This document shows positions 20,535 to 59,003 of a stretch of DNA of 63,700 nucleotides, in pieces. A program made the translations under genes and the position numbers. The DNA is from Lachnospiraceae bacterium (GTDB lineage: Bacteria > Bacillota > Clostridia > Lachnospirales > Lachnospiraceae), in assembly GCA_017619975.1 (NCBI GenBank), contig JAFZRH010000082.1, positions 1 to 63,700 on the forward strand, in the 5' to 3' direction. Every line of letters starts with the position of its first letter. The stretch's first letter is position 1. Below the pieces are notes generated by a model that was not told the DNA's origin, ran no database searches, and saw nothing but the letters and a program-made list of their open reading frames with translations.

Positions 20535-23327
20535 ATGAAAAAAGTATTTGCGCTGCTTGCAGCGCTGACCCTTATCCTCAGCCTGCTGGCCGCCTGCGGC
20601 ACGCAGGCGAATGAAACCACGCCGGCGCCGACCCAGGCTCCGACCGAAGCGCCTACGGAAGCCCCTACGACCGCCCCTGCGACGGACGATCTGGCAGCGG
20701 CGAAGGATTATATCTTTGCGATGTACAACAGCAAGGCGCTGGCGACACCTGCCGATTATCAGGTGACGTCAGTTGTAGCGATTGCCGGTGTGAGATATGA
20801 AGTCAGCTGGTCTGTCGAGATTACCTCCGGTCCGGCGGACGGCGTCAAGGTCGGCGCGGCCGAGAACAATCAGGTTACGATCGACGTAAACGAGAAGACC
20901 CCGGAAGACGTCGCCTACAATCTGGTAGCGACGGTCAAGGATGCGGCCGGCAAGACGGCTACCACCTCTTTCCCGCACACCATCCCGGCCTACAAGGAAT
21001 TTACCTGGGATGAATACGTTGCGGCCAAGGAAGGCGATACCGTTGTGGTGAAAGGCGTGATCAGCGCGACCATGTCCAAGACCCGCGGCAATTCCGCCAA
21101 CTGCCTGTATCTGCAGGATGCCGACGGCGGCTACTATGTTTACAACATGGCTGATGACCCCGATGCCGCCGGCTATGTACCCGGCATGACGGTCCGCGTG
21201 ACCGGCTCCCGTTCCACCTATTCCGGAACCTATGAGATCATGAATGCTTCCGTCGAAGTGCTGGAAAACGGTCCCGCCGAGCTGGAAGTCGTGGATCTGA
21301 CTGATCTCTATGCGAATGCGGCTTCCCTGAAGGATGCCGAGCTGACCAAACTGCAGGCCAAGCTTGTAACGGTCAAGGGTGTGGAAATCACCGGTCAGGA
21401 TACCGGCAGCGGCTACTACAAGTTCAAACTGGGCAGCCTGGAGAGCTATGCCCGCATTTCCTCCTCCGTCTGCCCGCTGACCAAGGAAGAGCAGACGCAG
21501 TTTACCACCGCGCACGGCGAGCACCTGGGCTGGATCGCGAACGTGACCGGCGTCCTCTGCGTGTATGACGGCGCCTTCTATGTAACGCCCGCCACGGTCG
21601 ATGCATTTGAATACGTCGGTCTGCCGGAGAAGAGCGATGCGGAAAAAGTCGCCTATGAAGCCGATCTGATCGTGATCCCGGAAAAGATCACCGAAGATAC
21701 CGCGGTTGCGGTAGGCAACGTCGGCCAGAGCTATGAAAGCGTTGCGATCGCTTTCTCGGCTGACAACGAGTGCGTGGCAGTAGAAGACGGCAAGCTGATC
21801 TTTACCTGCCCCGATGCGGATACCGAAGTGACAATCAAAGCAGTTCTGACCAGCGGCGCCGAAGTTCTTGAGAAGGAATTCAAGGTCCTGGTCGAAGCGG
21901 CTGCGACCGACGTCTATGTGGCGGAGATCGTGGACGCGCCTGTTGCCGGCGAAGCCTACAAGCTGGTCCTGTTCCAAAACATGGCCGGCGGCGTGTTCTA
22001 CTTCAACGGCGAAGCCTCGGGCGACCGTTATCTGGCGACCACTGAAAAGGCTGACAAGGCCGTCGATGTGTTCCTGGAAGAAGCGGAAGGCGGTTACAAG
22101 CTGTACTTCCTGAACGGCGAAGAGAAGACCTATATCGAGATCGGTCTTAATGAAAACGGCAAGACGGCCGCTCAGCTGAAAGCCGAAAGCGAACTGGTCG
22201 CCGTCTGGAATGAAGAGTTTGGCACCCTGTTCTGCGACGTGAACGGCACGAATTATTATCTGGGCGCTTACAATGCGTATACGACCATCAGCGTTTCCGA
22301 CAGCAAGTACATCAGCGGCGAGAACGCGGCCAACATCGGCATCTCGCAGTTCCCTGCTCATCTGTGCAAGGTCGCTCCTGCCCAGTACAAGAACAACATC
22401 GTGGAAGCACCGGAAGCCGACAAGGCTTACAAGCTGGTTCTGTTCCAGAATGCGGCCGGCGGCGTGTTCTATTTCAACGGCGAAGCCTCGGGCAATCGGT
22501 ATCTGGGAAGCACGGAAAAGGCTGACAAGGCTGTTGACGTGTTCCTGGAAGAAGCGGAAGGCGGCTTCAAGCTGTACTTCCTGAACGGCGAAGAGAAGAC
22601 CTATATCGAGATCGGCCTGAACGGCGATGGCAAGACCGCAGCGATGCTGAAAGCGGAGAGCGATCTGGTTGCTGCCTGGGATGCGGACGCCAAGACGCTG
22701 ATGACCACGGTCGATGGCACGAATTACTATCTCGGCTCCTACAAGACCTATACGACCTTCAGCGTATCGGATGCGAAGTACATCAGCGGCGAGAACGCGG
22801 CGCAGATCGATATCTCGCAGTTCCCGTCCCGTCTGGTGGAGCTGGAGCTTGTCAAGACCGACACGAAGGTCGTGGAAGAGCCGGAAGCCGACAAGGCTTA
22901 CAAGCTGGTTCTGTTCCAGGCCCTGGCCGGCGGTACCTTCTACTTCGACGGAGAGGCCAGCGGCGACCGCTATTTAAGCTCCACGGACAAGCTGTCCAAG
23001 GCGGTCGACGTCTTTTTGGAAGCGGTGGAAGGCGGCTTTAAGCTGTACTTCATGAACGGCGAAGAGAAGACCTATATCGAGATCGGCCTGAACGGCGATG
23101 GCAAGACCGCGGCGATGCTGAAGGCGGAGACCGATCTGGTTGCTGTCTGGAATGCGGATGCCAAGACGCTGATGACCACGATCGACGGCACGAATTACTA
23201 TCTCGGCTCCTACAAGACCTACACGACCTTCAGTGTATCGGATGCCAAGTATATCAGCGGCGAGAATGCGGCGCAGATCGATATCTCGCAGTTCCCGTCC
23301 CGCCTGGTCCTGATCGAAGCGGAATAA
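20535..23327 (+). CDS. Large surface lipoprotein with OB-like domain and three C-terminal tandem repeats
   Basis: 930 residues. Lipobox LLAAC (Cys 21), a short TQAPTEAPT linker, an Ig-like domain (about 50-150), an OB-fold-like domain (about 155-245, DTVVVKGVISATMSK..LYLQDADGGYYVYN), a further OB-like stretch to about 365, an Ig-like domain to about 455, then three repeats of about 155 residues. Each repeat contains AYKLVLFQ, FYFNGEASG.RYL, EEKTYIEIGL and KYISGENAA. The repeat fold is unknown to me; it is rich in predicted beta strands. OB folds suggest single-strand nucleic acid or oligosaccharide binding. It ends the ABC/nuclease block before a clear terminator. Confidence 0.75.
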   Translation: MKKVFALLAALTLILSLLAACGTQANETTPAPTQAPTEAPTEAPTTAPATDDLAAAKDYIFAMYNSKALATPADYQVTSVVAIAGVRYEVSWSVEITSGPADGVKVGAAENNQVTIDVNEKTPEDVAYNLVATVKDAAGKTATTSFPHTIPAYKEFTWDEYVAAKEGDTVVVKGVISATMSKTRGNSANCLYLQDADGGYYVYNMADDPDAAGYVPGMTVRVTGSRSTYSGTYEIMNASVEVLENGPAELEVVDLTDLYANAASLKDAELTKLQAKLVTVKGVEITGQDTGSGYYKFKLGSLESYARISSSVCPLTKEEQTQFTTAHGEHLGWIANVTGVLCVYDGAFYVTPATVDAFEYVGLPEKSDAEKVAYEADLIVIPEKITEDTAVAVGNVGQSYESVAIAFSADNECVAVEDGKLIFTCPDADTEVTIKAVLTSGAEVLEKEFKVLVEAAATDVYVAEIVDAPVAGEAYKLVLFQNMAGGVFYFNGEASGDRYLATTEKADKAVDVFLEEAEGGYKLYFLNGEEKTYIEIGLNENGKTAAQLKAESELVAVWNEEFGTLFCDVNGTNYYLGAYNAYTTISVSDSKYISGENAANIGISQFPAHLCKVAPAQYKNNIVEAPEADKAYKLVLFQNAAGGVFYFNGEASGNRYLGSTEKADKAVDVFLEEAEGGFKLYFLNGEEKTYIEIGLNGDGKTAAMLKAESDLVAAWDADAKTLMTTVDGTNYYLGSYKTYTTFSVSDAKYISGENAAQIDISQFPSRLVELELVKTDTKVVEEPEADKAYKLVLFQALAGGTFYFDGEASGDRYLSSTDKLSKAVDVFLEAVEGGFKLYFMNGEEKTYIEIGLNGDGKTAAMLKAETDLVAVWNADAKTLMTTIDGTNYYLGSYKTYTTFSVSDAKYISGENAAQIDISQFPSRLVLIEAE
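21919..23325 (+). repeat. Three tandem coding repeats of about 465 bases
   Basis: Units at about 21919-22395, 22396-22866 and 22867-23325. Units 2 and 3 are nearly identical over long stretches at the DNA level (for example 22588-22657 against 23056-23125), indicating recent duplication or gene conversion; unit 1 is more diverged. Confidence 0.85.
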
Positions 23328-32045: not shown

Positions 32046-33593
32046 GTGAGTAAACGGATATTGAGACACGGCACCGCGCTGCTTCTGATGACGGTGCTGT
32101 TCATTTCTTCCCTGCTGACGCCCGTCACGGCGCAGGCGCAGGAGATACAAAGAAGCCGGACCGGGATCGGACGGGAGGATCACGCCTTCGTGGAAATGCC
32201 GGGCTTTATCAAGCCGGCGGAACCGTCGATCCACGGTGCGATGGCGATCCTGGTGGAACTGAATTCCGGAACGATCCTGTATGCCAAAAATATCAATCAG
32301 CGGACTTATCCGGCCAGCACCACGAAAGTGATGACCGCGCTTCTGGCACTGGAAAATCTTCAGCTGGACGATACCCTGCTGATTTCCTACAATGCCACGC
32401 ATGATCTGATCTCCGGCGGCTTTGACGGACGTTTTCTGGAGGGGCAGGTCTTTACGATCGAGGAAGCGCTGTACGGTCTCTGCCTGGATTCGGTCAATAC
32501 TCTGGGCTATGCGCTTGCGGAGAAAATGGACGGAGACGTTCCGTCTTTTGCCGCCCGGATGAATGCCCGCGCGGCGGAGCTCGGGGCTCTGTTTACGTCC
32601 TTTACGAATCCGCACGGTCTGAACGATCTGGATCATCTGACCACGGCTTACGATATGGCGAAGATCCTCTGGGGAGCGATCGAGCTGGACGATTACCGGC
32701 GCATCGCCGGGACCGACCGGTATAACTGCGGAGAACTGAAAAGCGGACAGGTCATGAATTTCAGCCATACGCTGCGCCTGCTGCATCCGGAAAATTCCTG
32801 GTATGATTCCCGTGTTGTCTGCGGCAAGACCGGCTGGACCGAAGATGCCCACTTCTGTCGGGCGGTCTACGCCACGAACGGAGAACTGGATCTGATCTGT
32901 GTGGTCTTCAATTCCAACGGCGCGGACAATGTGGATTCCGACGTGAAAGGGCTGCTGGATTACGGCTTCAACAACTTCTCGCTGAGAAAAATGCCGGTTT
33001 TCGGCAACGGCAGCGTGCTGGGCGGCGTTATTCAGGATGAGAACGGAAAGGATCATACCATTCATTTTGCCGTCGGAGAGGGAAGAGTTTTAAACGGGAG
33101 CGTCGTTCTGGTCCCGAATACCTATGCGAATCTGCCCTGGACGCTGGATCTTTGCCTGGATGACGGAAACCTGAAGGGATATGCTTCTCTGGGCGGCGTG
33201 GCGCTGGTGGAATATCCGCTGATCCTGAAGCTGCCGGAAGAAACCACCAAGAGCAATTATTTCCCGACGGCGGTCCTGACGGTCGAAGAGCAGGAATCGG
33301 CGAATCCGTCAACGGAAAACAACCCGGCTGTGTCTTCGGAGAGGCCTGCGGATCAGGTCACGGAAACAGCGGCGGCAGATCCGACCAATCAGACGGCCGG
33401 GGCATCGCTGCTGCCGGATCGGAACGAGCCGCAGGAACCGGGGGCGTTCGGCCATAATCTGCTGACGCTGGCTTTGATCATTTGTGCCGCGTTTTTTGTC
33501 CTTTGTCTGGTCGCCCTTCTCTTTACCCTGGGGCAGAACAGAAGACTTCGGAAACGGGTAGACCGGCGGAATGCCCTGAAGAAAGACACATGA
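32046..33593 (+). CDS. D-Ala-D-Ala carboxypeptidase (S11), membrane-anchored
   Basis: 515 residues. Signal peptide (to about 30), S11 penicillin-binding domain with SxxK at S91-K94 (STTKVMT), SVN, and CGKTGWTED (KTG box), then a beta-rich C-terminal domain, a Thr/Ala/Pro linker and a membrane helix at about 475-497. Members trim the terminal D-Ala of peptidoglycan stem peptides outside the membrane. GTG start. The catalytic domain is closely similar to the dockerin-bearing paralogue at 55671, including REDH.FVEMP and NATHDLISGGFD, so one copy is self-anchored and the other scaffold-borne. Confidence 0.9.
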   Translation: MSKRILRHGTALLLMTVLFISSLLTPVTAQAQEIQRSRTGIGREDHAFVEMPGFIKPAEPSIHGAMAILVELNSGTILYAKNINQRTYPASTTKVMTALLALENLQLDDTLLISYNATHDLISGGFDGRFLEGQVFTIEEALYGLCLDSVNTLGYALAEKMDGDVPSFAARMNARAAELGALFTSFTNPHGLNDLDHLTTAYDMAKILWGAIELDDYRRIAGTDRYNCGELKSGQVMNFSHTLRLLHPENSWYDSRVVCGKTGWTEDAHFCRAVYATNGELDLICVVFNSNGADNVDSDVKGLLDYGFNNFSLRKMPVFGNGSVLGGVIQDENGKDHTIHFAVGEGRVLNGSVVLVPNTYANLPWTLDLCLDDGNLKGYASLGGVALVEYPLILKLPEETTKSNYFPTAVLTVEEQESANPSTENNPAVSSERPADQVTETAAADPTNQTAGASLLPDRNEPQEPGAFGHNLLTLALIICAAFFVLCLVALLFTLGQNRRLRKRVDRRNALKKDT

Positions 33594-34098: not shown

Positions 34099-35547
34099 TT
34101 ATTTCATCGACAGTACGCCCATCGGGCAGGTGCTGACGCAGGCGCCGCACTGGATGCAGGCATCCCGGTTGATGGACCAGTCGCCGTCCACGGTGATGGC
34201 GCCCATCGGGCAGGCACCGGCACAGGCACCGCAGAAGATGCAGCCTTCGCCAAACTGAACGCCGGATTCCCCGGCAGCAGCTTCGGCCGCCGGCGCGGCA
34301 GCTTTCGGCGCGGGAGCGGCAGGAACCGTTTCTTTCGCGACGGGAGCCGCTTCGGGCGCCGCCGTCTTGCCGTCCAGGTCACCGATGCGCAAGGTCTTCT
34401 TCGGGCAGTTCGCCACGCAGATGCCGCACCAGACGCACTTCTCGCGGTCGACGGTCCAGCTCTTTGACGCGCGGTCCACCGTGATGGCTTCCATCGGGCA
34501 CTTGCGCATGCACATGCCGCAGTAGATGCAGTCAGGCCCTAAGATGACGCCGGTATCCCAGTCGTTCTTCGCCTGCGGGATCAAACCGGAGAGGAGAGCG
34601 GGAAGGGCTTTTTTCACGGATTCGGGCGCTTTAGCGCTTTCAGCCGGTAAATGCTCGGCCTTCGGCTCAGAATCGCTCTGAGGGGCCTTTACGGGCGCTG
34701 CAGGGGCAGCCGGGGCAGCGGGAGCAGCTTTCACCGGCTCGGAAGGAGCAGGCGCGGCCGGAGCAGCCGGCGCGGCGGCTTTCTCAAAGCGGGACGGCGT
34801 ATTCTCGTCCACGTCGCCCATCGAAAGCGTCTTCTTCGGGCAGCCGCTGACGCAGGCACCGCAGCGGATGCAGGCATTCCGGTCGATCTCCCAGGTCTTC
34901 GCGGCGCGGTCTACGGTCAGAGCGCCGACGGGGCACTTCTTCGCGCAGAGCGTGCAGAATACGCAGTCGCCGCCCATGATGACGCCCTGTGCCTTCGGTT
35001 CCTGGAAGGAGAGCGCTTTCTTCGGGCACTTCGTGATGCACTGTCCGCACTGGACGCATTCGTCGTAGTTGATGGTCCAGCTCTTTGTCGCACGGTCTAC
35101 GGTGATGGCGTTCTCCGGGCAGTTGCGCGCGCAGAGTCCGCAGTAGACGCAGTTCGCCTTGTCCAGCGTGACGCGGCCGGCAACCTTCTGCTTGATGCGG
35201 GAGCCCGTCACGATCAGATCCTTCGGATCCTCCGCGACCATGTGGTAGTCTTCGCTTAAGGAGATGGCCTTGGTGCCGCAGAAATCCTGGCAGGTGCCGC
35301 AGAAGGTGCAGCTGGTCAGATTGATGTCGTAGGTGATCTTTTCGCCGCCTTCGACTTCTTCCACGGTGCGGGTGATCGCGCCGGGCGAGCAGACCTTAAT
35401 GCACATGCCGCAGTTGACGCATTTTTCCGGATCATAGACGATGCGGCCACGGTAGGCGGGCTTGGCATCGACCGGAACTTCGGGGAAGCGGACGGTGTGA
35501 GGCTTTTTAAACAGGTTGGATAATGCTTTTTTCGCGAAAGGGAACAT
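34099..35547 (-). CDS. Ten-cluster polyferredoxin, NuoI/MbhN-like subunit of the hydrogenase
   Basis: About 482 residues. The first 75 residues look like the NuoI/EchF/MbhN electron-transfer subunit with two 4Fe-4S motifs (CVNCGMCIKVC, CTFCGTCQDFC). Eight more CxxCxxCxxxC motifs follow in pairs: CVYCGLCARNC, CVQCGQCITKC, CVFCTLCAKKC, CIRCGACVSGC, then after an Ala/Pro linker CIYCGMCMRKC and CVWCGICVANC, and after another Ala/Pro linker CIFCGACAGAC and CIQCGACVSTC. Usual subunits have two clusters. It would wire several electron donors to the hydrogenase. ATG 35547 (GGGAGG upstream) is preferred over the overlapping GTG 35550. Last gene of the operon. Confidence 0.9.
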   Translation of the reverse strand: MFPFAKKALSNLFKKPHTVRFPEVPVDAKPAYRGRIVYDPEKCVNCGMCIKVCSPGAITRTVEEVEGGEKITYDINLTSCTFCGTCQDFCGTKAISLSEDYHMVAEDPKDLIVTGSRIKQKVAGRVTLDKANCVYCGLCARNCPENAITVDRATKSWTINYDECVQCGQCITKCPKKALSFQEPKAQGVIMGGDCVFCTLCAKKCPVGALTVDRAAKTWEIDRNACIRCGACVSGCPKKTLSMGDVDENTPSRFEKAAAPAAPAAPAPSEPVKAAPAAPAAPAAPVKAPQSDSEPKAEHLPAESAKAPESVKKALPALLSGLIPQAKNDWDTGVILGPDCIYCGMCMRKCPMEAITVDRASKSWTVDREKCVWCGICVANCPKKTLRIGDLDGKTAAPEAAPVAKETVPAAPAPKAAAPAAEAAAGESGVQFGEGCIFCGACAGACPMGAITVDGDWSINRDACIQCGACVSTCPMGVLSMK

Positions 35548-35987
35548 CACATGGCCTCCCGTTTTTTCTTAAGGATCTGCGCAGCCTTGTACAGGCCTTC
35601 GATGATCGCTTCGGGCTTGGGCGTGCAGCCGGCGATGGCTACGTCCACTTCGCAGAACTTCTCCAGCGGAGCTTCCACGGAGTAGCTGCCTTTAAAGACG
35701 TTGCCGGACTGCGGGCAGGAACCGATAGTCACGACGCAGTGCGGATTCGGAACCTGTTCCAGGGTGCGGAGCAGCCGGTCCTTCGACTGGGACGTGATGG
35801 GTCCGGAGACGACCACGATATCCGCGTGCCGCGGGGTGCCGGCGAGTTTAAAGCCGTAGCGCTCCACGTCGTAGCGGGGCGTTAAGCAGGCGACCAGTTC
35901 GATATCGCAGCCGTTGCAGGAACCGGTGTTGACGTGATAGATCCAGGGGGATTTCGTCATACTGTTTGCAATGATCTTTTTAAACAT
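35547..35987 (-). CDS. Group 4 [NiFe] hydrogenase small subunit (NuoB/MbhJ/EchC-like)
   Basis: 146 residues. The proximal 4Fe-4S ligands are GSCNGCDIEL, the TIGSCPQSG Cys and the AGCTPKP Cys, as in NuoB and energy-converting hydrogenases. It passes electrons from the polyferredoxin to the NiFe site in the large subunit. It starts 12 bases after the NuoH-like gene and its stop abuts the polyferredoxin start. Confidence 0.93.
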   Translation of the reverse strand: MFKKIIANSMTKSPWIYHVNTGSCNGCDIELVACLTPRYDVERYGFKLAGTPRHADIVVVSGPITSQSKDRLLRTLEQVPNPHCVVTIGSCPQSGNVFKGSYSVEAPLEKFCEVDVAIAGCTPKPEAIIEGLYKAAQILKKKREAM

Positions 35988-36992: not shown

Positions 36993-38915
36993 TTATGACA
37001 GAAATACAAAGGTGAAGAGGGTGATCAGCGTGACGCCGATCACGACCCAGAGGGCATAGTCGTTGGTCTTTCCGGAATGCAGATTGCCCATGACTTTGAA
37101 GTAGCCCTTCAGATCCTTCTTGAAGCCCCAGAACAGATCGGAGCCGCCGACGTGGGAATGCAGGCTTTCTTCGCAGCCGAAGAAGGTGGCGTGCTTGCTG
37201 TCTGTTTTCTCCGGCAGACTGACCGGGCCGCGTTCCCGGGCGCCGCTGACGGCGACCAGCGTTACGGCGCAGGTCACGATCACAAAGAGCAGCAGCCAGA
37301 ACACGGGATCCCAGATGCTGACCGAGGTGAAGGTGGTAGGCTGCGGTCCGATGCCGTTCGCGAAGGCGTAGCCTTCTCCCATCATGGTATCCACGTACTT
37401 GGCGGGATTGGTGACGGCGTTGACGGCGGGATTCACGACGTAGACAATGGTCTGATTGTAGAAGAGGCCGCAGGCGATGCAGAGCGCCGACATGATGAAC
37501 ATGGGCAGCTGCATGCCGAAAGGCACTTCTTTCGTCTTCTCGAGGGTGGCGGGAGCCTGTCCGAAGAAGACCGCGCCGGTAACTTTAATGAACGAAGCCA
37601 GCGTCATAACGGAGACCAGAAGCGCCGTGACGGTGATGATCACGTAGATGAAGTTTCCGCTTAAATTCGCTTTCTCATACGCCGCCTGATAGATGATCCA
37701 CTTGGAAGCAAAACCGTTGAAGGGCGGGATGCCGCTGATGGCGAAGGCGCCGACCAGGAAGCAGGCCGTGGTGCGCGGCATCCGTTTGGCCAGACCGCCC
37801 AGCTTGTCCAGGTTGGTGGTGCCTGTCGCGTAGTAGACCGCGCCGGCCGTCAGGAAGAGCAGCCCCTTGAACAGCGTGTGGTTCATGGCGTGGAACAGAC
37901 CGCCGTACAGACCGAGATTTGTACCCAGGCCGACGGCCATCAGCACGTAGCCGATCTGAGAAATGCTGTGGAAGGCCAGAAGACGCTTGAAATCGTGCTG
38001 CGCCAGCGCCATCGTGACGCCGACGAACATGGTCAGCGCACCGAGGATGGAAAGAAGCAGCATCAGAGATTCCTTGTCCATGGTCCGGAACAGGATGTAG
38101 GTCAGCCGGATGATGCCGTAGATGCCCGCCTTGTTGACCATGCCGGAGAACAGCGTGGAAACGGAGGCCGGAGCGGTGGCGTAGGCATCGGCCGCCGGCG
38201 TGTGGAACGGAACCACGAAGCTCTTGACGGCGAGACCCGCCAGCATGGTGCCGAAGGCCAGGAGCGTGGTGGGCTGCATTCCCTTCGAGGAAATGAGCGC
38301 CGCGATTTGCGCCATGTTCAGCGTATGGGTGGTCAGATACAGGAGCGCCACGCCCAAAAGGAAGAGCGAAGAGCCGATGGAGCCGAGCACCAGATACTTG
38401 AAGGCGCCTTCCAGCGCTTCCGGATGCTTGCCGTGACGGAAGGCCGTCAGAGCCACGGAAGCGAAGGTCATGATCTCGATCATGATGAAGAGGTTGAAAA
38501 CGTCGCCGGTAAACACGAGACCGAGGACGGAACCCGCCAGCATCAGGAACAGCGTGTAGTAGTGACCCAGATGGCCGTCCCGCTCCATGTAGCGGCGGGA
38601 GAAGAGCACGCTCATCAGGAAGGTGAGCGCGGTCAGCAGACCGAAGAACAGGCCCAGACCGTCGATCTCATAGCCGATACCGAAGGCATAGCCGCCTTCC
38701 GGCTTCCAGCCGCCCATCCAGTAGGAAATCACCTCGCCCCTGAAAAAGACCGGGACGATCAGATAGAAGGTCATGGCGGCCGCGCCGAGGCAGGCGATCA
38801 GGCTGATCGCGTAGCGGACGTGTTTGTTCTTATTGCCGAAGATCTCCACCAGGAAGGCTGCCAGGAACAGACCCATCACGGAGATAACGGGGAAATGTAC
38901 GTAGAAATTACTCAT
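36993..38915 (-). CDS. Antiporter-like ion-pumping subunit (MrpD/NuoN/MbhH-like)
   Basis: 640 residues with about fourteen or more helices. It has the antiporter core (FNLFIMIEIMTFASVAL with the key Glu, KSFVVPFHTPAADAYATAPA with the key Lys, AFHSISQIGYVLMAVGLG) and a C-terminal extension with extra helices. Homologues pump protons or sodium in Mrp antiporters and in Mbh hydrogenase. Its start overlaps the MnhC-like gene by four bases. Confidence 0.92.
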   Translation of the reverse strand: MSNFYVHFPVISVMGLFLAAFLVEIFGNKNKHVRYAISLIACLGAAAMTFYLIVPVFFRGEVISYWMGGWKPEGGYAFGIGYEIDGLGLFFGLLTALTFLMSVLFSRRYMERDGHLGHYYTLFLMLAGSVLGLVFTGDVFNLFIMIEIMTFASVALTAFRHGKHPEALEGAFKYLVLGSIGSSLFLLGVALLYLTTHTLNMAQIAALISSKGMQPTTLLAFGTMLAGLAVKSFVVPFHTPAADAYATAPASVSTLFSGMVNKAGIYGIIRLTYILFRTMDKESLMLLLSILGALTMFVGVTMALAQHDFKRLLAFHSISQIGYVLMAVGLGTNLGLYGGLFHAMNHTLFKGLLFLTAGAVYYATGTTNLDKLGGLAKRMPRTTACFLVGAFAISGIPPFNGFASKWIIYQAAYEKANLSGNFIYVIITVTALLVSVMTLASFIKVTGAVFFGQAPATLEKTKEVPFGMQLPMFIMSALCIACGLFYNQTIVYVVNPAVNAVTNPAKYVDTMMGEGYAFANGIGPQPTTFTSVSIWDPVFWLLLFVIVTCAVTLVAVSGARERGPVSLPEKTDSKHATFFGCEESLHSHVGGSDLFWGFKKDLKGYFKVMGNLHSGKTNDYALWVVIGVTLITLFTFVFLS

Positions 38916-47768: not shown

Positions 47769-50132
47769 TTATTTCAGTCTGGCGGCGGCGACGGCAAGCT
47801 GGCCCAGACACAGGCCCTCGTCGTTCGCCGACACCTGTTTATGATGATACACGCGGAAGCCCTCTTTTTCAAGCGCCCGCGGCAGTTTCTCCACGAGGAA
47901 CATGTTCTGGAAGGTCCCGCCGGAAAGGACGATCTGTTCAAAGCGCTGCGGGGGCGGCAGCTCATCCTTGAGGCGGCGGCAGATCTCCGTGCTCATCCGG
48001 ACCAGCGTATTCAAAAACATCGCGGCCAGACGCGCGGGCGGGACGTTTTCTTCCCGCTTTAAGCGGATCAGCTCCGCGGTCATCGGCCGCTCGTCAAAGA
48101 GCAGCCGGCCTTGACCGGTCAGGAGACCGTACGACAGCGTTTCGCGGGCACCGGTTTCGGCGGCCGCTTCCAGAAGGATCGCGGCCTGGCCTTCGTAGCT
48201 CGCCTGAGCGCAGATTCCCAGCAGGCAGCTGACCGCATCGAAAAGGCGCCCCATGCTGCTGGAAAGAGGGCAGTTGATGCCGCTTTCCAGCTGCCGCAGG
48301 GCGGCCGCCGCGGCCGCATCTTTCGTCAGGGAAAGCCGTTCCGCCTCCAGTGCCGGAAGCACTTCCCGTCTGTTTTCGGCCGCCCATTTTGCGGCATCCT
48401 CCAGCAGAGAGACGGCTAAACGGCGGATCTCGCGCACGGCCTTATCTCCGCCGGGCAGGCGGAAAGGTCTGAGCGAGGCAGCGCGGGTAAAGTCCGAAGA
48501 ATCGCCGAGCAAAAATTCCCCGCCCCAGACGGTTCCGTCCGTGCCGTAGCCGCTGCCGTCCCAGATGATGCCAAGCGAGCGGCCGCTTAAGCCGTTGTCT
48601 GCCAGGCAGGCTGCCATGTGCGCATGATGGTGCTGGACGCGGATGAGCGGCAGACCTTCCGCCGCGGCGCGCCTTTCCGCGTAACGCGTGGTCAGAAAAT
48701 CCGGATGCAGATCACAGACCAGCGCCTGCGGTTTTAAGTCGAAGAGCTTCTCGTAATGCGAGATCGTGTCCTCGTAGTGGGAGAGCGTCTCCCAGTTTTT
48801 ACAGTCGCCGATGTGCGGGGAGAGGAAGACCTGCGCCGGGCCGCTTCCGTCAACAGGCAGTTTGGAGATGGCAAAGCTCGCTTTCTGTTCGGCGCCGCAG
48901 GCGAGGATCGAACGGGAGAACGACAGCGTTTCCGGCTCGATCGGCTCCGGCGCATAGCCGCGGGAGCGGCGGGCAAAGTATGGCTTTCCGTCCAGTTCCC
49001 AGAGCAGCGAATCGTCGCAGCGCGCCACGATGTCGCGGTTATGCAGCAGGAAGCCGTCCGCGATGCCGGCCAGTTCCCGCAAAGCGTCTTCGTTATCTTT
49101 CAGGATCGGTTTATCGGACAGGTTCGCGCTGGTCATAACTAAAAGCGCGGGCCCGTCGTTTAGCAGCAGCTCGTGCAGCGGCGTGTAAGGCAGCATGATG
49201 CCGAGCCGGCTGTTTTCGCTTAAAAACCCGAAGGCGGCCGGATCTTTCTTCTTCAGGAGAACGATGGGACGCTGGCGGCGCTTCAATAGCGCTTCTTCGG
49301 CCGGCGTGATTTCGCAGACGGCGCGCACGGCATCCAGATCCCGCGCCATCAGGGCGAAGGGCTTTTCTTCGCGCTCCTTGCGGCGGCGCAGAGCAAGGAC
49401 GCTTTCCTCAAGATCCGCGCGGCAGGCCAGATGCATGCCGCCCAGGCCTTTGACGCAGAGGATTCCGCCCTGCTCCAAAAGGCGGACAGCTGCCGCCAGC
49501 GCCGCCTCCCCTTCACCTTCGGGGGCGGTTTCCGGCTTCGGAAAGCCGGCCGTTTCAAAGTATTCCAGCTGCGGCCCGCAGTCCGGGCAGCAGGTCGGCT
49601 GCGCGTGATAGCGCCGGTCCGCGATATCGTGATATTCCGCGTCGCAGGGTCCGCACATCGGGAACTTTCCCATGGACGTCAGCGGCCTGTCGTAGGGCAC
49701 GTCTTTCACGATCGTATAGCGCGGTCCGCAGTTGGTGCAGTTGATAAAGGGATAGCGATAGCGGCGGTTTTTCGAATCGAAAAGCTCCCGTCGGCAGTCT
49801 TCGCAAAGGCCCACGTCCGGCGAGATCAGCGCCTGCCGGCCCGGCAGCACCTGAGAACTTAAAATGCGGAAATCCGTATAATCCTTCAGTTCGTGATAGA
49901 AAACCGCCTGTACGTCGCGTACAACGGCGAGCGCCGGCGCCTTGGTCCAGAGTTCGTCGATGAAGAGGCGGACGCGATCGTCCTCCCCTTCGATCTCGAT
50001 CTCTACGCCCTGAGAAGTGTTGCGGATGAATCCGCAAAGAGAATGATCCGTGATCTGTTTGTGAATAAAGGGACGGAAGCCCACGCCCTGCACGATGCCG
50101 GAAACCCTGATATTCGCGCCGATGCGTGCCAT
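47769..50132 (-). CDS. hypF: Carbamoyltransferase HypF
   Basis: 787 residues with the complete HypF order: acylphosphatase domain (SGIVQGVGFRPFIHK), two zinc-finger motifs (CEDC..CTNC and CGPC..CPDC), a YrdC-like domain, and a Kae1-like carbamoyltransferase domain with HHHAHMAACLADNGL. It converts carbamoyl phosphate to the thiocarbamate on HypE. ATG 50132 has AAGGAGGG upstream and is preferred over an in-frame start 18 codons earlier. Confidence 0.94.
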   Translation of the reverse strand: MARIGANIRVSGIVQGVGFRPFIHKQITDHSLCGFIRNTSQGVEIEIEGEDDRVRLFIDELWTKAPALAVVRDVQAVFYHELKDYTDFRILSSQVLPGRQALISPDVGLCEDCRRELFDSKNRRYRYPFINCTNCGPRYTIVKDVPYDRPLTSMGKFPMCGPCDAEYHDIADRRYHAQPTCCPDCGPQLEYFETAGFPKPETAPEGEGEAALAAAVRLLEQGGILCVKGLGGMHLACRADLEESVLALRRRKEREEKPFALMARDLDAVRAVCEITPAEEALLKRRQRPIVLLKKKDPAAFGFLSENSRLGIMLPYTPLHELLLNDGPALLVMTSANLSDKPILKDNEDALRELAGIADGFLLHNRDIVARCDDSLLWELDGKPYFARRSRGYAPEPIEPETLSFSRSILACGAEQKASFAISKLPVDGSGPAQVFLSPHIGDCKNWETLSHYEDTISHYEKLFDLKPQALVCDLHPDFLTTRYAERRAAAEGLPLIRVQHHHAHMAACLADNGLSGRSLGIIWDGSGYGTDGTVWGGEFLLGDSSDFTRAASLRPFRLPGGDKAVREIRRLAVSLLEDAAKWAAENRREVLPALEAERLSLTKDAAAAAALRQLESGINCPLSSSMGRLFDAVSCLLGICAQASYEGQAAILLEAAAETGARETLSYGLLTGQGRLLFDERPMTAELIRLKREENVPPARLAAMFLNTLVRMSTEICRRLKDELPPPQRFEQIVLSGGTFQNMFLVEKLPRALEKEGFRVYHHKQVSANDEGLCLGQLAVAAARLK

Positions 50133-50157
50133 GCTTTCATCCCTCCTTTGCCAGGAC

Positions 50158-50186
50158 AATATATCACTTTCTTGCCGGATTGGCAA
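50158..50186 (-). promoter_or_regulatory. Promoter for hypF-hypC-hypD-hypE
   Basis: Minus strand TTGCCA (50181-50186) and TATATT (50158-50163), 17-base spacer, about 26 bases before hypF. Confidence 0.7.
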
Positions 50187-53368: not shown

Positions 53369-55636
53369 ATGAACCGAAAAACAGCCAGCAGAAAACATGC
53401 GGTATCGGTCGGCGTCTTTGCGATGCTTGTGTTTTTTCTGTGCCTGTTTTTCCTGAAGATCCCCGCGCGGGCCGATATCAGTTCGGCCGAAGATCCCGGC
53501 GAAGTGACGACGGCGGCCGGTGACGAAGAGGTCACCACGGCGGAAGAAAGCACGGCTCCGGAAAACACCACGGAAGAAAACACCGAAGAAACGACGGAAC
53601 CGACTTCGCCGACGGAAACGGAACCGGAACAGCCGGATTATCATGAGGCGGTCGAGATCCCGCTGTCTTCACCCTTCACATACGGCAATATTACGGAAGA
53701 TACCGAACTCGTTTTTGTGACCGGCGATCAGACGCCGATCAACGTCCGGGGCGGAGCCGGGACCGAGTATCCGGTCGTCGGCAAAACACGGAAGTGGCAG
53801 TCGTTCCGCCAGCTGGATACCGAAACGGATGCGGAAGGGAAGATCTGGTATAAAGTGCTGATCGAGCTGGAAGACGAATCCTATGAGGGGTATATCTCGT
53901 CGCTGGTCAGCCGTTCCGTCTATCTTTCCGTCGGGGAGGATCCTTTCGCCAGCTATCTGATCCTGATGGGTTTTCCGGAAAGCTATGCGTCGCGTCTCAG
54001 TCTGGTCCATGCACAGTATCAGGCCTGGTTTTTTATTCCGACTTATACGGGGATCGACTGGGCGGATGCTTTGTATGCGGAAGCGAATCCGGATCACGCG
54101 GTCGGGATCAGCCTGACCTATATCTCAAAAGGCCCGTCTTCCTACCGATCCATGAAGCACAACAATTTCGACTGGGAAGCAAATGCCTGGAAAGGCTACG
54201 ACGGCGGCAACTGGACGCTGGCTTCCGATGAGCTCGTCGCCTATTTCCTGGATCCCCGCAATTTCCTGAGTCCGTATGACGACAGTATTTTCCTGTTCCT
54301 GAATCTGCTTTACGACGGAACGCAGACGGAGGAGGGCATCCGGAATATCGTCAGGAATTCCTTTATGGAAGACGGAAAACATAAGTACGGAGAGAGTTTT
54401 TCCTATCCGGCCGAATTCCTCCGGATCGGACAGGAACTGGGGATCAGTCCCTACTATCTGGTCTCAACCGTGCTCCAGGAAGTCAGTGCCGGCGGCAGCG
54501 GGAGCGTCAGCGGCAGCTATCAGGGAAACCTGTCGTATTATTCCGGAATCTATAATTACTATAACATCGGAGCCTATACGCACGGCGGGATGACGGCGGT
54601 GGAATCCGGCCTGCAGTGGGCGTCGGCCACACCGGCTGCGAATGCCAATGCGTACAACCGACCCTGGAACGACCGGATCAAAGCCATGGAGGGCGGTGCC
54701 CGGTATTTCGTGTACAACTATATCGGCCGCGGCCAGAATACTTTCTATTATAAAAAATTCAACGTGATAGGCGCTTCTCTTTACACCCATCAGTACATGA
54801 CGAATATTTTAGGCGCCTATTCGGAAGCCGTCTATTTCGGACGGGCGTATGACGCTTCGGCCCGGGCGGCGATCCTGAGTTTTGATATCCCGATCTATAA
54901 CAATATGCCGGAGCAGCCCTGCCCGCTGCCGACCAAAGACGGGAACCCCAACACCCGCTTACAGAAACTGACGGCGGGCGATGCCGTGATTTCGCCGCAG
55001 CTGAACGTGAACGACACGGAATACAGTGCCGCCGTTTTTACGGGAACGGTCACGGTCCTGGCCGAGACGATCGACGCAGGCGCGCAGGTCGAAGGGGCAG
55101 GCACGTTCGACCTGACCGAAGGAAAAAACCTGATTACGCTGACGGTAACGGCTGAGAACGGCGATACGAGAGAGTATCATCTGAATCTCTGGTATGAAGA
55201 TCCGGGAGATCTGACGCCGGTGACCTCGTATACCGTACAGGGGGATCTCATCAGCGGGATCGAGCCGGGCATCAGCGCTGCGGAATTTAAAGAGAATATC
55301 AGCTTTGCGGACGGAGTGAACTGGATCCTGTCGGCGGCCGACGGAGAAGAGAAGACGGACGACAAGCTGATGCAGACGGGTGACCGCATTCAGATCCTTT
55401 CCCCGAACGGCGTGGTCTGGCAGACCTATACGATCCTGATTTACGGCGACGTGAACGGGGATGGAATGATCGACATTTTTGACCTGGTCGGTGTGCGGAA
55501 CCATATTATCCAGACGGCGGAACTGGCGGAGATCTCTTTCCTGGCCGGAGACGTCAACAGGGACGGCACCGTCGACATTTTTGATCTGGTCGGCGTCCGG
55601 AATCACATCATCCAGTTTGCTCTGATCGAGCAGTAA
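53369..55636 (+). CDS. Secreted glucosaminidase with SH3 and C-terminal dockerin
   Basis: 755 residues. Signal peptide to about 35; Thr/Glu linker; SH3-like domain at about 105-190 (TPINVRGGAGTEYPVVGKT); a LytD-like glucosaminidase region at about 330-500 with likely catalytic Glu near 371 (STVLQEVSAGG) and YNYYNIGAY; a cadherin-like beta domain at about 540-610; a module at about 620-690 shared with the next protein; and a dockerin at about 692-755 with two calcium loops (DVNGDGMIDIFDLVGVRNHI and DVNRDGTVDIFDLVGVRNHI). Predicted to cut peptidoglycan glycan strands. It should bind the cohesin protein two genes downstream. Start ATG 53369 follows GGAAGGGA. Confidence 0.88.
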   Translation: MNRKTASRKHAVSVGVFAMLVFFLCLFFLKIPARADISSAEDPGEVTTAAGDEEVTTAEESTAPENTTEENTEETTEPTSPTETEPEQPDYHEAVEIPLSSPFTYGNITEDTELVFVTGDQTPINVRGGAGTEYPVVGKTRKWQSFRQLDTETDAEGKIWYKVLIELEDESYEGYISSLVSRSVYLSVGEDPFASYLILMGFPESYASRLSLVHAQYQAWFFIPTYTGIDWADALYAEANPDHAVGISLTYISKGPSSYRSMKHNNFDWEANAWKGYDGGNWTLASDELVAYFLDPRNFLSPYDDSIFLFLNLLYDGTQTEEGIRNIVRNSFMEDGKHKYGESFSYPAEFLRIGQELGISPYYLVSTVLQEVSAGGSGSVSGSYQGNLSYYSGIYNYYNIGAYTHGGMTAVESGLQWASATPAANANAYNRPWNDRIKAMEGGARYFVYNYIGRGQNTFYYKKFNVIGASLYTHQYMTNILGAYSEAVYFGRAYDASARAAILSFDIPIYNNMPEQPCPLPTKDGNPNTRLQKLTAGDAVISPQLNVNDTEYSAAVFTGTVTVLAETIDAGAQVEGAGTFDLTEGKNLITLTVTAENGDTREYHLNLWYEDPGDLTPVTSYTVQGDLISGIEPGISAAEFKENISFADGVNWILSAADGEEKTDDKLMQTGDRIQILSPNGVVWQTYTILIYGDVNGDGMIDIFDLVGVRNHIIQTAELAEISFLAGDVNRDGTVDIFDLVGVRNHIIQFALIEQ

Positions 55637-55670
55637 GGACGGGGAACCGACGGTGGCTGAGGGGACGGCA

Positions 55671-57035
55671 GTGAGAAAAACGCTATTGAAAAAAATATGT
55701 GCTCTCGTGACAGCGGCGGTTCTTCTGCTGGCGCTGCTTCCGCTGCCTGTCCGGGCGGAACCGACGCCGGGGCGGACGAAGATCGGGCGGGAGGATCACG
55801 GCTTTGTCGAGATGCCGTCCTCCTTCTATGCCTCGCAGCCGTCCATCAATTCCAAGGCCGCCATCCTGGTGGATCTGGGAACCGGAACGATCCTGTTTGA
55901 AAAAAACATCCATCAGCAGAAGTATCCGGCCAGTACGACAAAAGTGATGACGGCGCTTCTGGCGCTGGAAAAACTGGAACTGGACGATACGCTGACCGTT
56001 TCCTACAACGCCACGCACGATCTGATCTCCGGCGGTTTTGACTGGCGCTTCCAGGCCGGTCAGGTCTTTACGATCGAAGAAGCGCTTTACGGCCTCTGCC
56101 TGGCTTCCGTCAACACGCTGGGCTATGCCCTGGCGGAAGAGATCAGCGGCGACGTTCCGACCTTTGCGGCGCTTATGAACGAACGGGCTGCCGCTGCCGG
56201 CGCGCTGAACACGCATTTCACCAATCCTCACGGCTTAAATGATATGAATCATCTGACGACCGTATACGATATGGCGAAAATTCTCTGGGCGGCCGTCGAG
56301 CTGGACGACTACCGCCGCATTGCGGGGACGGATTACTATTCCTGCGCGGAACCGAAAAACGGACAGGTCATGAACTTCAGTCATACCCTGTCCTTTGTCC
56401 ATCCCTCCAACAAGTGGTACGATCCCCGTGTGGTGTGCGGCAAGACCGGATGGACGGAAGATGCGAATCTGTGCCGCGCGATCTACGCCACAGACGGAAA
56501 CCGGCATCTGATCTGTATCGTCTACGACTTTACCGGCGACCAGGATTATATAGAATCCGACGTGGAGACACTGCTGGATTACGGCTTTTCCTTTGACGAG
56601 GCGAGTCTGGCATCCCTGCAGACCTCTTACACGCTGCGAAACGGGGTCCTCTCCGGGGTTCAGCCCGGAACCGTGGCGTCACAGCTCCGCGCGCGGATCA
56701 GTCTGCAGACGGCCGGCAGCTGGGTGCTGACGGATGCGCAGGGCGTGGAAAAATCCGGGTCTTCGCTGATCAGAACCGGAGATAAGATCTGGGTGTACGC
56801 ACCGAACGGCGTGCTCCGCTACAGCGTTGAAATCGTGATCTACGGAGACGTGAACGGAGACGGGATCATTGATATTTTTGATCTTGTCGGGATCAGAAAT
56901 CATATTATAGCCATAAAAGATCTGCAGGACAGCGCATTCCGGGCAGGAGACGTCAACCGGGACGGTTCGGTGGATATCTTTGACCTGGTCGGGATCCGGA
57001 ATCATATTATCGAATACTCGTTGATTGAACAGTAA
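55671..57035 (+). CDS. D-Ala-D-Ala carboxypeptidase with C-terminal dockerin
   Basis: 454 residues. Signal peptide (to about 30); S11 domain with SxxK at S88-K91, SVN and CGKTGWTEDA; a module at about 320-390 (SYTLRNGVLSGVQPGT..) like the one in the upstream protein; then a dockerin (DVNGDGIIDIFDLVGIRNHI, DVNRDGSVDIFDLVGIRNHI). The catalytic half is closely similar to the TM-anchored enzyme at 32046. Dockerins are usually on fibre-degrading enzymes, so one on a peptidoglycan carboxypeptidase is unusual. GTG 55671 with GAGGGG upstream is preferred over GTG 55653. It lies 34 bases after the glucosaminidase gene. Confidence 0.9.
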   Translation: MRKTLLKKICALVTAAVLLLALLPLPVRAEPTPGRTKIGREDHGFVEMPSSFYASQPSINSKAAILVDLGTGTILFEKNIHQQKYPASTTKVMTALLALEKLELDDTLTVSYNATHDLISGGFDWRFQAGQVFTIEEALYGLCLASVNTLGYALAEEISGDVPTFAALMNERAAAAGALNTHFTNPHGLNDMNHLTTVYDMAKILWAAVELDDYRRIAGTDYYSCAEPKNGQVMNFSHTLSFVHPSNKWYDPRVVCGKTGWTEDANLCRAIYATDGNRHLICIVYDFTGDQDYIESDVETLLDYGFSFDEASLASLQTSYTLRNGVLSGVQPGTVASQLRARISLQTAGSWVLTDAQGVEKSGSSLIRTGDKIWVYAPNGVLRYSVEIVIYGDVNGDGIIDIFDLVGIRNHIIAIKDLQDSAFRAGDVNRDGSVDIFDLVGIRNHIIEYSLIEQ

Positions 57036-57050
57036 AGGAGGCAAAAGAGA

Positions 57051-59003
57051 ATGAAAAGAAGGAAAATATCCTATCTATTGACCGCGGCCTTCGCGGCGCT
57101 GACGGTCTTGTTCTCCGTGCACGCGGCGGCAGAGATCCATTTCTCCGATCCGAGCTGCAAAGTCGGAGAGACGGTGACCATTTCATTTTATGTCTCAGAA
57201 CCCTTTAGCATGGGACAAATTTATCTGGTTTACGACAGTTCTTTATTAGAGTATGTCGCTCTTAGTACAACCGGAACGAGTTCTTCGGTCAATTATTCAG
57301 GTAATATGATTTATATTGTTTCTGGTGGTTTGGATAAAGAGTTGCATAGTGTTTCCTATTCGCTGACGATGAGAGCGTTAAAAGCAGGAGTAGGAAAAAT
57401 TACTGTGGATAGTGATCATACAAAGTTTTCAGATGTCAATCAGAATGCAATCGCTTCTGGTTCTCACGGATCCTCCACGATCACGATCACCGAAGCGGCG
57501 ACACAGCCGCCTACGGAACCGCCCACCGAGCCTCCGACAGAGCCCCCGACGGAACCGCCCACCGAGCCGCCGACCGATCCGCCCCACGAACACGTCTACA
57601 ACGTCCGGACGGTCGTGCAGGAAAACTACCGGACCAGCGAAAGCGCGGACGGCAAATACATCATTTACTGGGATCAGGTGCGCTATGACTGCGCCTGCGG
57701 CGAAGCCTTCGGAGCGGATCTTCTGGATCAGGAAAACCATCGGGAGCTGAAGCCGGCGGAGACGACCGCGCCAGAACCTTCTTCCGAAGCCCGTCTGAGC
57801 GTGCTTCATTTCTCTGGCGTGGGAGAGATGACGCCTGCCTTCGATCCGGATACCTACAGCTACCGGCTGACGATCGATCCGGAAGTCGACGCCCTGCAGG
57901 TCCGCTACAGTCCGAAGGATGAGAACGCGACGGCCTATTTCTGGCCGTGGATCGACGGACAGTCGCATGACGGGGAACAGAAAACGATCCCTTACGGAGA
58001 AACCGTATTCACGATCCGCGTAACGGCGGAAGATGACACCACCACGCGTGATTACCGCGTCACCATCGTCCGGCCCGCGCCGGAAACGGAGCCGGTCCCG
58101 ACCACCACGCCGGTTGAGACCACGCCCGAAGAAACGACTACGGAAGAGACAACTCCGGAAGAAACGACCACGGAGGAGACCACGCCCGAAGAAACCACCA
58201 CGGAAGAAACGACGCCGGAAGAGACGACCACGGAACCGGTCACGGAGCCGGATGTGATCACGGTCGACAGTACGCCTGTCACGGTCAAGATCCTGCCGCT
58301 GCCGGAAGATCTGGATCTGTCGCCCGAATACACCGTTGTTCAGGTTGTCGCGCAGGGCGGCGTCACCTACCGTGCGCTGGCTCCGACGGGGGAAACGGAT
58401 CCGGTGCATCTGCTGCTGTACGGTGTTCCGATCCGCGAAGTGCCGGAAAGCACTTCACCGGAAGGGGCGGTCATTCCTGCCGGCTATGAAGAGATCGGTG
58501 AGCCGTCGCTGTACGTCTATGACCGCTATCAGGGGACGCTGCAGCGCTACGGTCTGATCCGCCAGCCGGAAACCTCGGCGCCTGACCCGGAAACAAAGGA
58601 ACCCGAACCGGAAACGACGCAGCCGGTGACCGAGATCCCGGAGAGCCCCGCCGGAACGGAAACTTCGGCTCCTGCAGCGACGGCTCCCGACGCGACAGCC
58701 CCGGAAACGCCGGACAGAAACAATTCGGAGGGGAATCTCCCCTGGTGGATCTGGCTGGCGCTGCTGATCCTGTTCGGTATCTGCCTGACGGCGATCATCG
58801 TTCTGCTGGTCTCGAAAGACCGTCTGGAAAAACGGCTGCTTCAGGCTGAGCGTTTAAGCACCGACGAAGAGGAAGCCTACCTGAAGATGAATACGAACGC
58901 GCTCTATGACGCAGCCAAGGCGGCGAATCCCCCGAAAACCTACGGCATAGAGGATATAGAAGATCTGGACGAAGTACTGAAGGGCGGCAGGGACGGTCAG
59001 TAA
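57051..59003 (+). CDS. Membrane-anchored cohesin protein (single-cohesin scaffoldin)
   Basis: 650 residues. Signal peptide to about 26; a cohesin-type domain at about 27-145 (CKVGETVTISFYVSEPFSM, IYLVYDSSLLEYVAL); a PTEPP repeat linker at about 150-180; a small domain with CAC; a cadherin-like beta domain at about 245-345; a TTPEETTTEE repeat linker; a further beta region to about 500; a Pro/Thr linker; a membrane helix at about 563-587; and a 63-residue charged cytoplasmic tail. The order is that of an anchoring scaffoldin, except that the anchor is a membrane helix with a real cytoplasmic tail. It lies 15 bases after the dockerin carboxypeptidase gene. Confidence 0.85.
   Translation: MKRRKISYLLTAAFAALTVLFSVHAAAEIHFSDPSCKVGETVTISFYVSEPFSMGQIYLVYDSSLLEYVALSTTGTSSSVNYSGNMIYIVSGGLDKELHSVSYSLTMRALKAGVGKITVDSDHTKFSDVNQNAIASGSHGSSTITITEAATQPPTEPPTEPPTEPPTEPPTEPPTDPPHEHVYNVRTVVQENYRTSESADGKYIIYWDQVRYDCACGEAFGADLLDQENHRELKPAETTAPEPSSEARLSVLHFSGVGEMTPAFDPDTYSYRLTIDPEVDALQVRYSPKDENATAYFWPWIDGQSHDGEQKTIPYGETVFTIRVTAEDDTTTRDYRVTIVRPAPETEPVPTTTPVETTPEETTTEETTPEETTTEETTPEETTTEETTPEETTTEPVTEPDVITVDSTPVTVKILPLPEDLDLSPEYTVVQVVAQGGVTYRALAPTGETDPVHLLLYGVPIREVPESTSPEGAVIPAGYEEIGEPSLYVYDRYQGTLQRYGLIRQPETSAPDPETKEPEPETTQPVTEIPESPAGTETSAPAATAPDATAPETPDRNNSEGNLPWWIWLALLILFGICLTAIIVLLVSKDRLEKRLLQAERLSTDEEEAYLKMNTNALYDAAKAANPPKTYGIEDIEDLDEVLKGGRDGQ
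57185..57470 (+). other. AT-rich island coding for the cohesin domain
   Basis: By my count 67 of 180 bases (37%) are G or C in 57241-57420, against 41 of 60 (68%) in 57481-57540. Codons such as TTA, AGT, ATT and GTT dominate here but are rare in the surrounding gene. The change coincides with the cohesin-coding part. Confidence 0.85.

Follow-up and report, generated by a model that had tools for sequence, protein, structure and literature searches.

A predicted cohesin-dockerin system that would dock peptidoglycan enzymes on a membrane protein in Lachnospiraceae

We have analysed a 63,700-nucleotide stretch of DNA from a Lachnospiraceae bacterium (assembly GCA_017619975.1, contig JAFZRH010000082.1, positions 1 to 63,700; hereafter the window), and in particular three adjacent genes in it, P1, P2 and P3, which encode a glucosaminidase-like enzyme, an S11 D-Ala-D-Ala carboxypeptidase and a membrane-anchored protein. 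The Lachnospiraceae are a common gut family, and the source is a metagenome assembly of 2.12 Mb in 82 contigs. A preliminary description of this DNA had proposed that the trio is a cohesin/dockerin assembly built on enzyme kinds that act on the cell's own wall; the coordinates, reading frames and domains, together with the recurrence of the P1-P3 pair in other genera, bear this out. The three genes are intact and closely spaced, all lie on the + strand, and their reading frames are those given in that description. Shine-Dalgarno-like sequences precede P1 and P3, and the three genes are presumed to form one operon.

Modules of the three proteins

The genes and their parts are as follows.

53369..55636, + strand: P1, predicted secreted SagB/GH73-like N-acetylglucosaminidase with a C-terminal X-like module and a type I dockerin; ATG start with GGAAGGG upstream
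53951..54931, + strand: P1 catalytic domain with the invariant Glu371, which aligns with a Glu of the staphylococcal enzymes
55274..55435, + strand: P1 X-like module, directly before the dockerin; found with a profile built in this analysis, no Pfam match
55436..55633, + strand: P1 dockerin, repeats DVNGDGMIDIFD and DVNRDGTVDIFD; PF00404 at 4.9e-11
55653..57035, + strand: P2, predicted S11 D-Ala-D-Ala carboxypeptidase in which an X-like module and a dockerin replace the C-terminal membrane anchor; S11 at 2.8e-41
56835..57032, + strand: P2 dockerin, repeats DVNGDGIIDIFD and DVNRDGSVDIFD; PF00404 at 2.3e-10
57051..59003, + strand: P3, membrane-anchored protein with a single cohesin; AGGAGG before the ATG
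57120..57494, + strand: P3 cohesin domain, recognized through the matches of relatives and a leave-out model
57771..58091, + strand: P3 cadherin-like domain (PF12733, 1.2e-12)
58299..58604, + strand: P3 conserved extracellular domain, here named CT3; no Pfam match in the window, profile of this analysis
58755..58811, + strand: P3 transmembrane helix, residues 569-587, mean hydropathy 3.2

P1 begins with a signal-like N-terminus, which is a hydrophobic stretch by hydropathy, followed by a T/E-rich stretch, an SH3-like domain, the glucosaminidase-like domain, a cadherin-like domain, the X-like module and the dockerin; it has no C-terminal transmembrane helix, and the SH3-like and cadherin-like matches are both below the Pfam cut-off. 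PF01832, the family that had been named for its catalytic domain, matched neither P1 nor any other protein of the assembly, and the glucosaminidase kinship comes instead from the SagB model and from profile matches in the PDB. The best-scoring NCBIfam model for P1 is SagB (4.4e-6, 26.1 bits, with a model cut-off of 425). A profile from 17 P1 catalytic domains matched 6u0o_B (5e-19), 6fxp (7.6e-19) and 6fxo (1.2e-18), 6u0o being the SagB-SpdC complex, while a full-length P1 profile placed 6fxo, an Atl-type autolysin, narrowly first (5.7e-19) and SagB second. Glu371 is invariant in two alignments, of 16 and 17 rows, and aligns with the Glu of the staphylococcal SagB entries, which we take to be the catalytic residue. 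The P1 domain is thus, by these profile comparisons, probably a glucosaminidase relative with SagB and Atl as its nearest kin, and since PF01832 is unmatched and the SagB model stays below its cut-off, we call P1 'SagB-like' and not SagB.

P2 matches PF00768 (S11) at 2.8e-41, as had been predicted, and contains STTK94, SVN152 and KTG264, in agreement with the S11 motif rule (SxxK, SxN, KTG). P2 shows no C-terminal transmembrane helix by hydropathy; over its final 137 residues it shares 55% identity with the end of P1.

The expected PF00404 matches are present in both P1 (43.1 bits) and P2 (41.0 bits), well over the cut-off of 22.9, and with two calcium-loop repeats in each protein both are classed as type I dockerins. 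They had been described as nearly alike: they are of one type, reading DIFDLVG in P1 and P2 alike, but they are 74% identical over 66 residues. In the two other loci of the genus that carry a P2, L035 and L038, the P1 and P2 dockerins both read NISDLIK, in both repeats, so that the two dockerins are of one type in 3 of the 3 genomes having both. All four dockerin loops of the window keep the presumed calcium ligands. Both dockerins are, judging from this agreement in type and from the cohesin-dockerin covariation described below, very probably made for the single P3 cohesin. The window gives no sign that the dockerin was recently copied from one enzyme gene to the other, since the third-position identity of the two (45%) lies inside the between-genome range (36-58%); these sites are near saturation and bear on recent copying only, not on an older conversion.

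P3 consists of the cohesin, proline/threonine-rich linkers, the cadherin-like domain, CT3 (the profile of which matches 25 of 25 P3 proteins), one transmembrane helix and a 63-residue tail that is presumed to be cytoplasmic. The single C-terminal helix agrees with the membrane anchoring proposed earlier. After the helix the tail is often acidic, and several homologues end in motifs like EFIDLDL or FVDLD, whereas in one group the tail ends in an E(I/D)IPL-like motif such as EIDIPL; these ends are possibly a binding site inside the cell.

The earlier assignment of the P3 N-terminal domain to the cohesins is upheld as a prediction, although not by the route first suggested, since PF00963 does not match the P3 of the window itself. 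A scan of 20 P3 proteins, including that of the window, gave PF00963 matches at E<=0.1 for 10 of them. In single scans of ten relatives, eight reached E<=0.01, and five of the eight (L070, L074, L075, L057 and L078) also passed the curated cut-off. A model built from 10 out-of-genus cohesin domains scored the window domain at 68.8 bits, whereas none of 2000 shuffled decoys exceeded 11.0. When a profile of 25 P3 cohesin domains was compared with the PDB, solved cohesins came first (3l8q at 1.3e-7 and 1g1k at 2.3e-7, the latter alignment covering nearly the whole domain). The domain is accepted as a predicted cohesin through these relatives. It might instead be an immunoglobulin-like adhesion domain that merely resembles a cohesin, with P1 and P3 meeting via their cadherin-like domains, since both proteins have PF12733-like domains and a cohesin-like P3 also stands beside a dockerin-less P1 in 13 loci described below. 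We regard this as quite improbable: of the 44 PDB rows found with the family profile, the first 32 (down to E 0.068) all bear the name of a scaffoldin, a cohesin, O-GlcNAcase NagJ or Endoglucanase (the last two presumably cohesin chains), and within the genus the cohesin distance tracks the dockerin and not CAD3, the cadherin-like domain of P3.

Distribution of the pair and likely origin of P2

P1 and P3 occur together in 15 of the 16 genomes of the genus, with P1 counted whole or cut by a contig end, as it is in G002 (locus L095) and G015; in G006, which is 83% complete, neither was found. Elsewhere in the family, a cohesin gene is next in all 23 of the dockerin-bearing glucosaminidase loci with readable downstream sequence (batches of 10 + 13). 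They were picked by score and do not form a random sample; the three locus searches of the analysis, which gave a match in 20 of 46, 96 of 200 and 26 of 147 genomes, were followed for their top-ranked loci (at most 30, 30 and 20). L117, which has the dockerin and ends 120 nucleotides later, stands outside the 23; G039, G037 and G027, whose sequence as read showed no dockerin and no cohesin, and G035 and G044, with loci cut by contig ends, were also left uncounted. Four of the 23 (L078, L080, L082 and L085) belong to a set of ten loci fetched from dockerin matches alone; the remaining six of that set had the dockerin on other proteins.

Around the trio of the window, tgt and yajC lie upstream and an RNase H gene downstream; tgt is likewise upstream in L063 and L066, and RNase H downstream in L057, L063 and L066. 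The flanks differ in the out-of-genus loci L070, L073 and L074, of which only L073 has the pair itself. Because other genera have the two genes in the same order, the pairing is not due to chance, and the P1-P3 pair is, on this distribution, the apparent core of the system.

The dockerin is often the only one of its genome. The sole PF00404 match lies inside the glucosaminidase gene in 16 of the 20 out-of-genus genomes covered by the dockerin search (the other four have 2, 2, 3 and 12 matches; G151, G167 and G355, which complete the 23, were outside it), and the cohesin profile has one match in 13 of the 15 genomes searched. The assembly of the window has three PF00404 matches, namely P1, P2 and a 3306-residue secreted protein, subtilase-like by eye (G000:C62:10218-20135, also L076:4219-14136), which carries both a dockerin (PF00404, 9.6e-11) and a cohesin (PF00963, 1.1e-5) match. 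PF00404 matches in frames of about 1900-3350 residues are found in other genus genomes as well. Proteins of about 680-700 residues with a SpaA-like match and an X-dockerin are encoded at L087:3559-5598 (G009) and L077:4220-6325 (G006); their N-terminal part is without a Pfam match and shows YGHCWISLG and VHGGC motifs. They are a possible third cargo of the P3 cohesin.

P2 lies between P1 and P3 in three of the 16 genus genomes, which are the three with a dockerin-bearing S11 gene, and in the other 13 no dockerin match fell in an S11-sized frame, the largest frames not being read. From this distribution P2 appears to be a late addition to the P1-P3 core. The window contains a second S11 gene.

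32046..33593, + strand: second S11, without a dockerin and with a C-terminal transmembrane helix; 67% identical to P2 over 310 aligned positions

This gene is the likely source of the enzyme part of P2, and the simplest reading is that a resident membrane-anchored S11 would have been copied and its membrane tail swapped for the X-dockerin tail of P1. With one cohesin and two dockerins of the same type, 74% identical and in one presumed operon, P1 and P2 could compete, the cell exchanging cutting for trimming at one anchor, as had been suggested before. We consider this unlikely. Two copies of P3 could each hold one enzyme, side by side, and since only 3 of the 16 genus genomes have the S11 dockerin, swapping cannot be the general purpose of the system.

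Joint change of cohesin and dockerins

The best evidence for the predicted docking is the matched change of cohesin and dockerin within the genus. Over 14 pairs, the cohesin and dockerin distances are correlated with r 0.89, and the partial correlation remains 0.86 after removing four other domains (Mantel test, permutation p 1e-4; the permutation p values here do not model the tree). Given the dockerin, the cohesin distance has no positive tie to the P1 catalytic domain (-0.06), the X module (-0.07) or P3's own CAD3 (-0.23). L057, in which P1 is contig-cut, was left out of the Mantel tests and of the tree of the remaining domains (the chassis), and was kept in the cohesin tree.

The window and L035 are sisters on the chassis tree (100/99). 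They are 74% identical in the P1 catalytic domain, 78% in the P3 cadherin-like domain, 58% in CT3 and 77% in S11, whereas their cohesins are only 25% identical and their dockerins 52-55%. Compared with L062, the window shows the opposite, with 61% in the catalytic domain, 54% in the P3 cadherin-like domain, 34% in CT3 and 26% in the X-like module, against 59% in the cohesin and 73% in the dockerin. Along P1, the identity between the window and L035 falls from 76-80% at residues 651-700 to 44-52% over the dockerin, and the fall in P2 is less clean; along P3 it is 21-32% over residues 23-137 and 72-92% over 254-328.

The trees point in the same direction. The dockerin types (IF, IS, GI and MS) were labelled by eye after alignment, so that the approximately unbiased (AU) tests name groups after the fact. 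The chassis tree rejects the four owners of IF-type dockerins as a clade (AU p 1.3e-6), and the dockerin types need 6 changes on it (shuffled labels have a mean of 7.2 and are as low in 36 of 200). In the cohesin tree, the IF owners form one clade (100/99), a sister relation between the window and L035 is rejected (p 9.4e-6), and the types need 4 changes, where shuffled labels have a mean of 8.0 and are as low in 0 of 200.

Several observations weigh against a docking function for these modules. Only IF and GI are clades in the cohesin tree; MS needs 3 changes and IS 2, mostly on weak branches. Given the catalytic domain, the dockerin retains residual ties to the X module (0.34) and to CT3 (0.34). 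Over 25 pairs outside the genus, the cohesin-dockerin partial given the catalytic domain is weak (0.23, p 0.0016) and is exceeded by the tie of the cohesin to the catalytic domain given the dockerin (0.46), and over 39 pairs family-wide the covariation is much weaker than within the genus (L143 was dropped from this comparison). The genus genomes hold 1 to 5 dockerin matches, and other dockerins thus exist there. In the family, a cohesin-like gene also follows 13 glucosaminidase genes that lack the dockerin (L103, L104, L106 and L109; L116, L120, L121, L123, L124, L128, L131, L133 and L135, with weak cohesin-like matches in L116, 1e-5, and L124, 8e-6), and PF00404 is absent from 9 of these 13 genomes; G020 and G029 have a P3-like gene with neither such a glucosaminidase nor a dockerin match. 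The cohesin-like domain can, therefore, do without a dockerin in some genomes. Among 16 loci from outside the family are 6 with a dockerin on the glucosaminidase, and 3 of these 6 show a cohesin in the stretch read.

The glucosaminidase and P3 may have been partners before the dockerin appeared; alternatively, the dockerin may have been lost and the cohesin-like domain may have another ligand. An N-terminal membrane anchor in place of the missing dockerin was considered and discarded, as signal-like N-termini occur in both kinds of P1 with no difference by eye, where the start lay within the locus. In the outside family f60 (L144, L145, L147 and L148), the gene next to a dockerin-less glucosaminidase encodes cadherin-like and CT3 domains but no clear cohesin. 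This arrangement is perhaps a forerunner of the pair or a reduced version of it.

The joint change could also arise without any binding, as a by-product of linkage, if a recombination tract over the P1-P3 junction moved the dockerin and cohesin codons together. The two sets of codons do adjoin in loci without P2, where the gaps in 19 pairs are -4 to 32 nucleotides and one tract could move both, which is a further point against docking; moreover, between the P3 of the window and that of L035 the low identity extends beyond the cohesin: it takes in the signal peptide as well as the cohesin and recurs in the linker at residues 178-229 (12-22%), with the better kept residues 138-177 between the low stretches. 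On the other side, in the window, L035 and L038, P2, with S11 parts 68-77% identical, separates the P1 dockerin from the cohesin, and the P1 dockerin, the P2 dockerin and the cohesin all change type between the window and L035. One P1-P3 tract alone, therefore, cannot explain the type difference in these three loci, which are the chief argument against the linkage reading, although elsewhere it could. In addition, the X-dockerin of the G009 protein, on another contig, is of the RMS type, as is that of the G009 P1 (one case; the G006 protein has no such comparison, as no P1 was found in that genome), and the four window loops keep the presumed calcium ligands. Taken together, these points make linkage without binding improbable.

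Elsewhere in the window, a 930-residue lipoprotein-like protein (20535-23324), with LAACG near its N-terminus and three similar repeats of about 145 residues in its C-terminal half, has no Pfam match at 1e-5. A 483-residue protein on the - strand (34099-35550) has many 4Fe-4S motifs with Ala/Pro-rich linkers between them; since an antiporter-type membrane subunit (36993-38915) and HypF (47769-50186) are encoded in its vicinity, this may be a hydrogenase region. An Rfam scan of the window gave four tRNAs and nothing else. Promoter-like sites numbered 7 (shuffled mean 4.0, standard deviation 2.4) and terminator-like sites 17 (shuffled mean 9.0, standard deviation 2.9), and neither was used as evidence.

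A possible wall-enzyme receptor at the membrane

We propose that P3 sits in the membrane and that its one cohesin would capture the secreted P1 by its dockerin and, in this species and two related ones, would hold P2 likewise. Docking of P1 and P2 on P3, which would presumably depend on calcium, is highly probable in view of the sequence evidence given above. The docked enzymes would be fixed above the membrane, with the clasp serving in place of an enzyme's own membrane helix; P1 would then, like SagB held by SpdC in S. aureus, cut new glycan strands close to the membrane, and P2 would take the terminal D-Ala off the same new strands. That both enzymes act on the cell's own wall is, from their families, probable. 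Since P1 is a SagB-like enzyme and would likewise have a membrane protein as its holder, its most likely task is to cut strands close to the membrane; strand release in particular is suggested here as a plausible but tentative assignment.

Alternatively, the anchor may retain a cell-separation or turnover autolysin at the surface instead of a strand-release factor, or the enzymes may attack other bacteria. The Atl-type domain (6fxo) is as close to P1 as SagB is, and P1 has an SH3-like domain; a transmembrane anchor would, however, tie the activity to the producing cell, and a partner of the S11 carboxypeptidase kind would fit the making of new wall better than attack. We hold these roles to be less likely, though they deserve more weight than the competition or linkage readings. 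As a whole, a P3 receptor that docks the wall enzymes P1 and P2 over the membrane, with the cutting and trimming of nascent strands as its most likely purpose, is the explanation that we favour and consider fairly likely.

A close functional parallel is in S. aureus, where SpdC scaffolds SagB so that nascent strands are cut to the right length, as described in the excerpts of PMC10581084 and PMC12272431. In both cases a partner in the membrane keeps, or would keep, a glucosaminidase at the membrane, and the P1 catalytic domain is closest to SagB or Atl. SpdC, however, is a CAAX-protease-like integral membrane protein, while P3 has one C-terminal transmembrane helix, a cohesin and no CAAX-protease-type Pfam match, and P1 has a dockerin; a clasp of the cohesin-dockerin kind is not mentioned for SagB-SpdC in the excerpts of those two papers.

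The statement in the preliminary description that known cellulosomes place dockerins on plant-fibre enzymes was too strong. In R. flavefaciens, according to the excerpts of PMC2930009, dockerins are also present on a VanY protease and a carboxypeptidase, and according to those of PMC3573020 the NlpC/P60-like X-dockerin protein RflaF_05439 binds the single surface cohesin ScaE, an unpublished result of its authors, who speculate on cell-cell or protective roles. Here too a protein of a peptidoglycan-hydrolase superfamily with an X-dockerin is held by one surface cohesin, but within a cellulosome of over 220 dockerin proteins and with a sortase-linked ScaE (PMC3573020, excerpts). In R. bromii, X modules and not dockerins are beside cell wall hydrolase/autolysin domains (PMC5814915, excerpts).

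The scaffolds of cellulosomes, amylosomes and mucinolysomes use the same two clasp modules, but P3 has one cohesin, a transmembrane anchor, predicted peptidoglycan-enzyme cargo and no carbohydrate-binding Pfam match. With this one cohesin and the three PF00404 matches of the assembly, the system is not a cellulosome in the sense of a multi-cohesin scaffold with plant-polysaccharide enzymes. Non-cellulosomal pairs, including the C. perfringens NagJ found among the PDB matches, likewise use the clasp outside cellulosomes. Peer et al. 2009 have reportedly described non-cellulosomal cohesin-dockerin modules; we know of no wall-remodelling operon of the P1-P3 kind among such pairs, with which an overlap is possible. 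Among the open-access full-text papers listed, none describes a cohesin-dockerin pair for own wall enzymes, the subscription literature being mostly outside this set. The modules are thus known, their use here would be uncommon and the joint specificity change unusual, and priority cannot be asserted.

A wider possibility, which we offer as a conjecture, is that in gut Lachnospiraceae the cohesin-dockerin pairs serve as private address codes for the cell's own wall enzymes. The chassis would be inherited normally while the cohesin and all its cognate dockerins switch together to a new specificity, so that the secreted wall hydrolases of related neighbours sharing the niche could not dock on the wrong cell, and new enzymes, such as S11 or the 680-residue protein of G009, would join by acquiring the current code.

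If the favoured reading is true, the cohesin-dockerin clasp would move from the digestion of food to the building of the cell's own wall, and there would be a natural, mostly one-to-one system in which the specificity of the clasp changes without loss of the partner. It would also point to a way in which a SagB-type strand cutter is kept at the membrane of these bacteria, which could be tested in cultured relatives.

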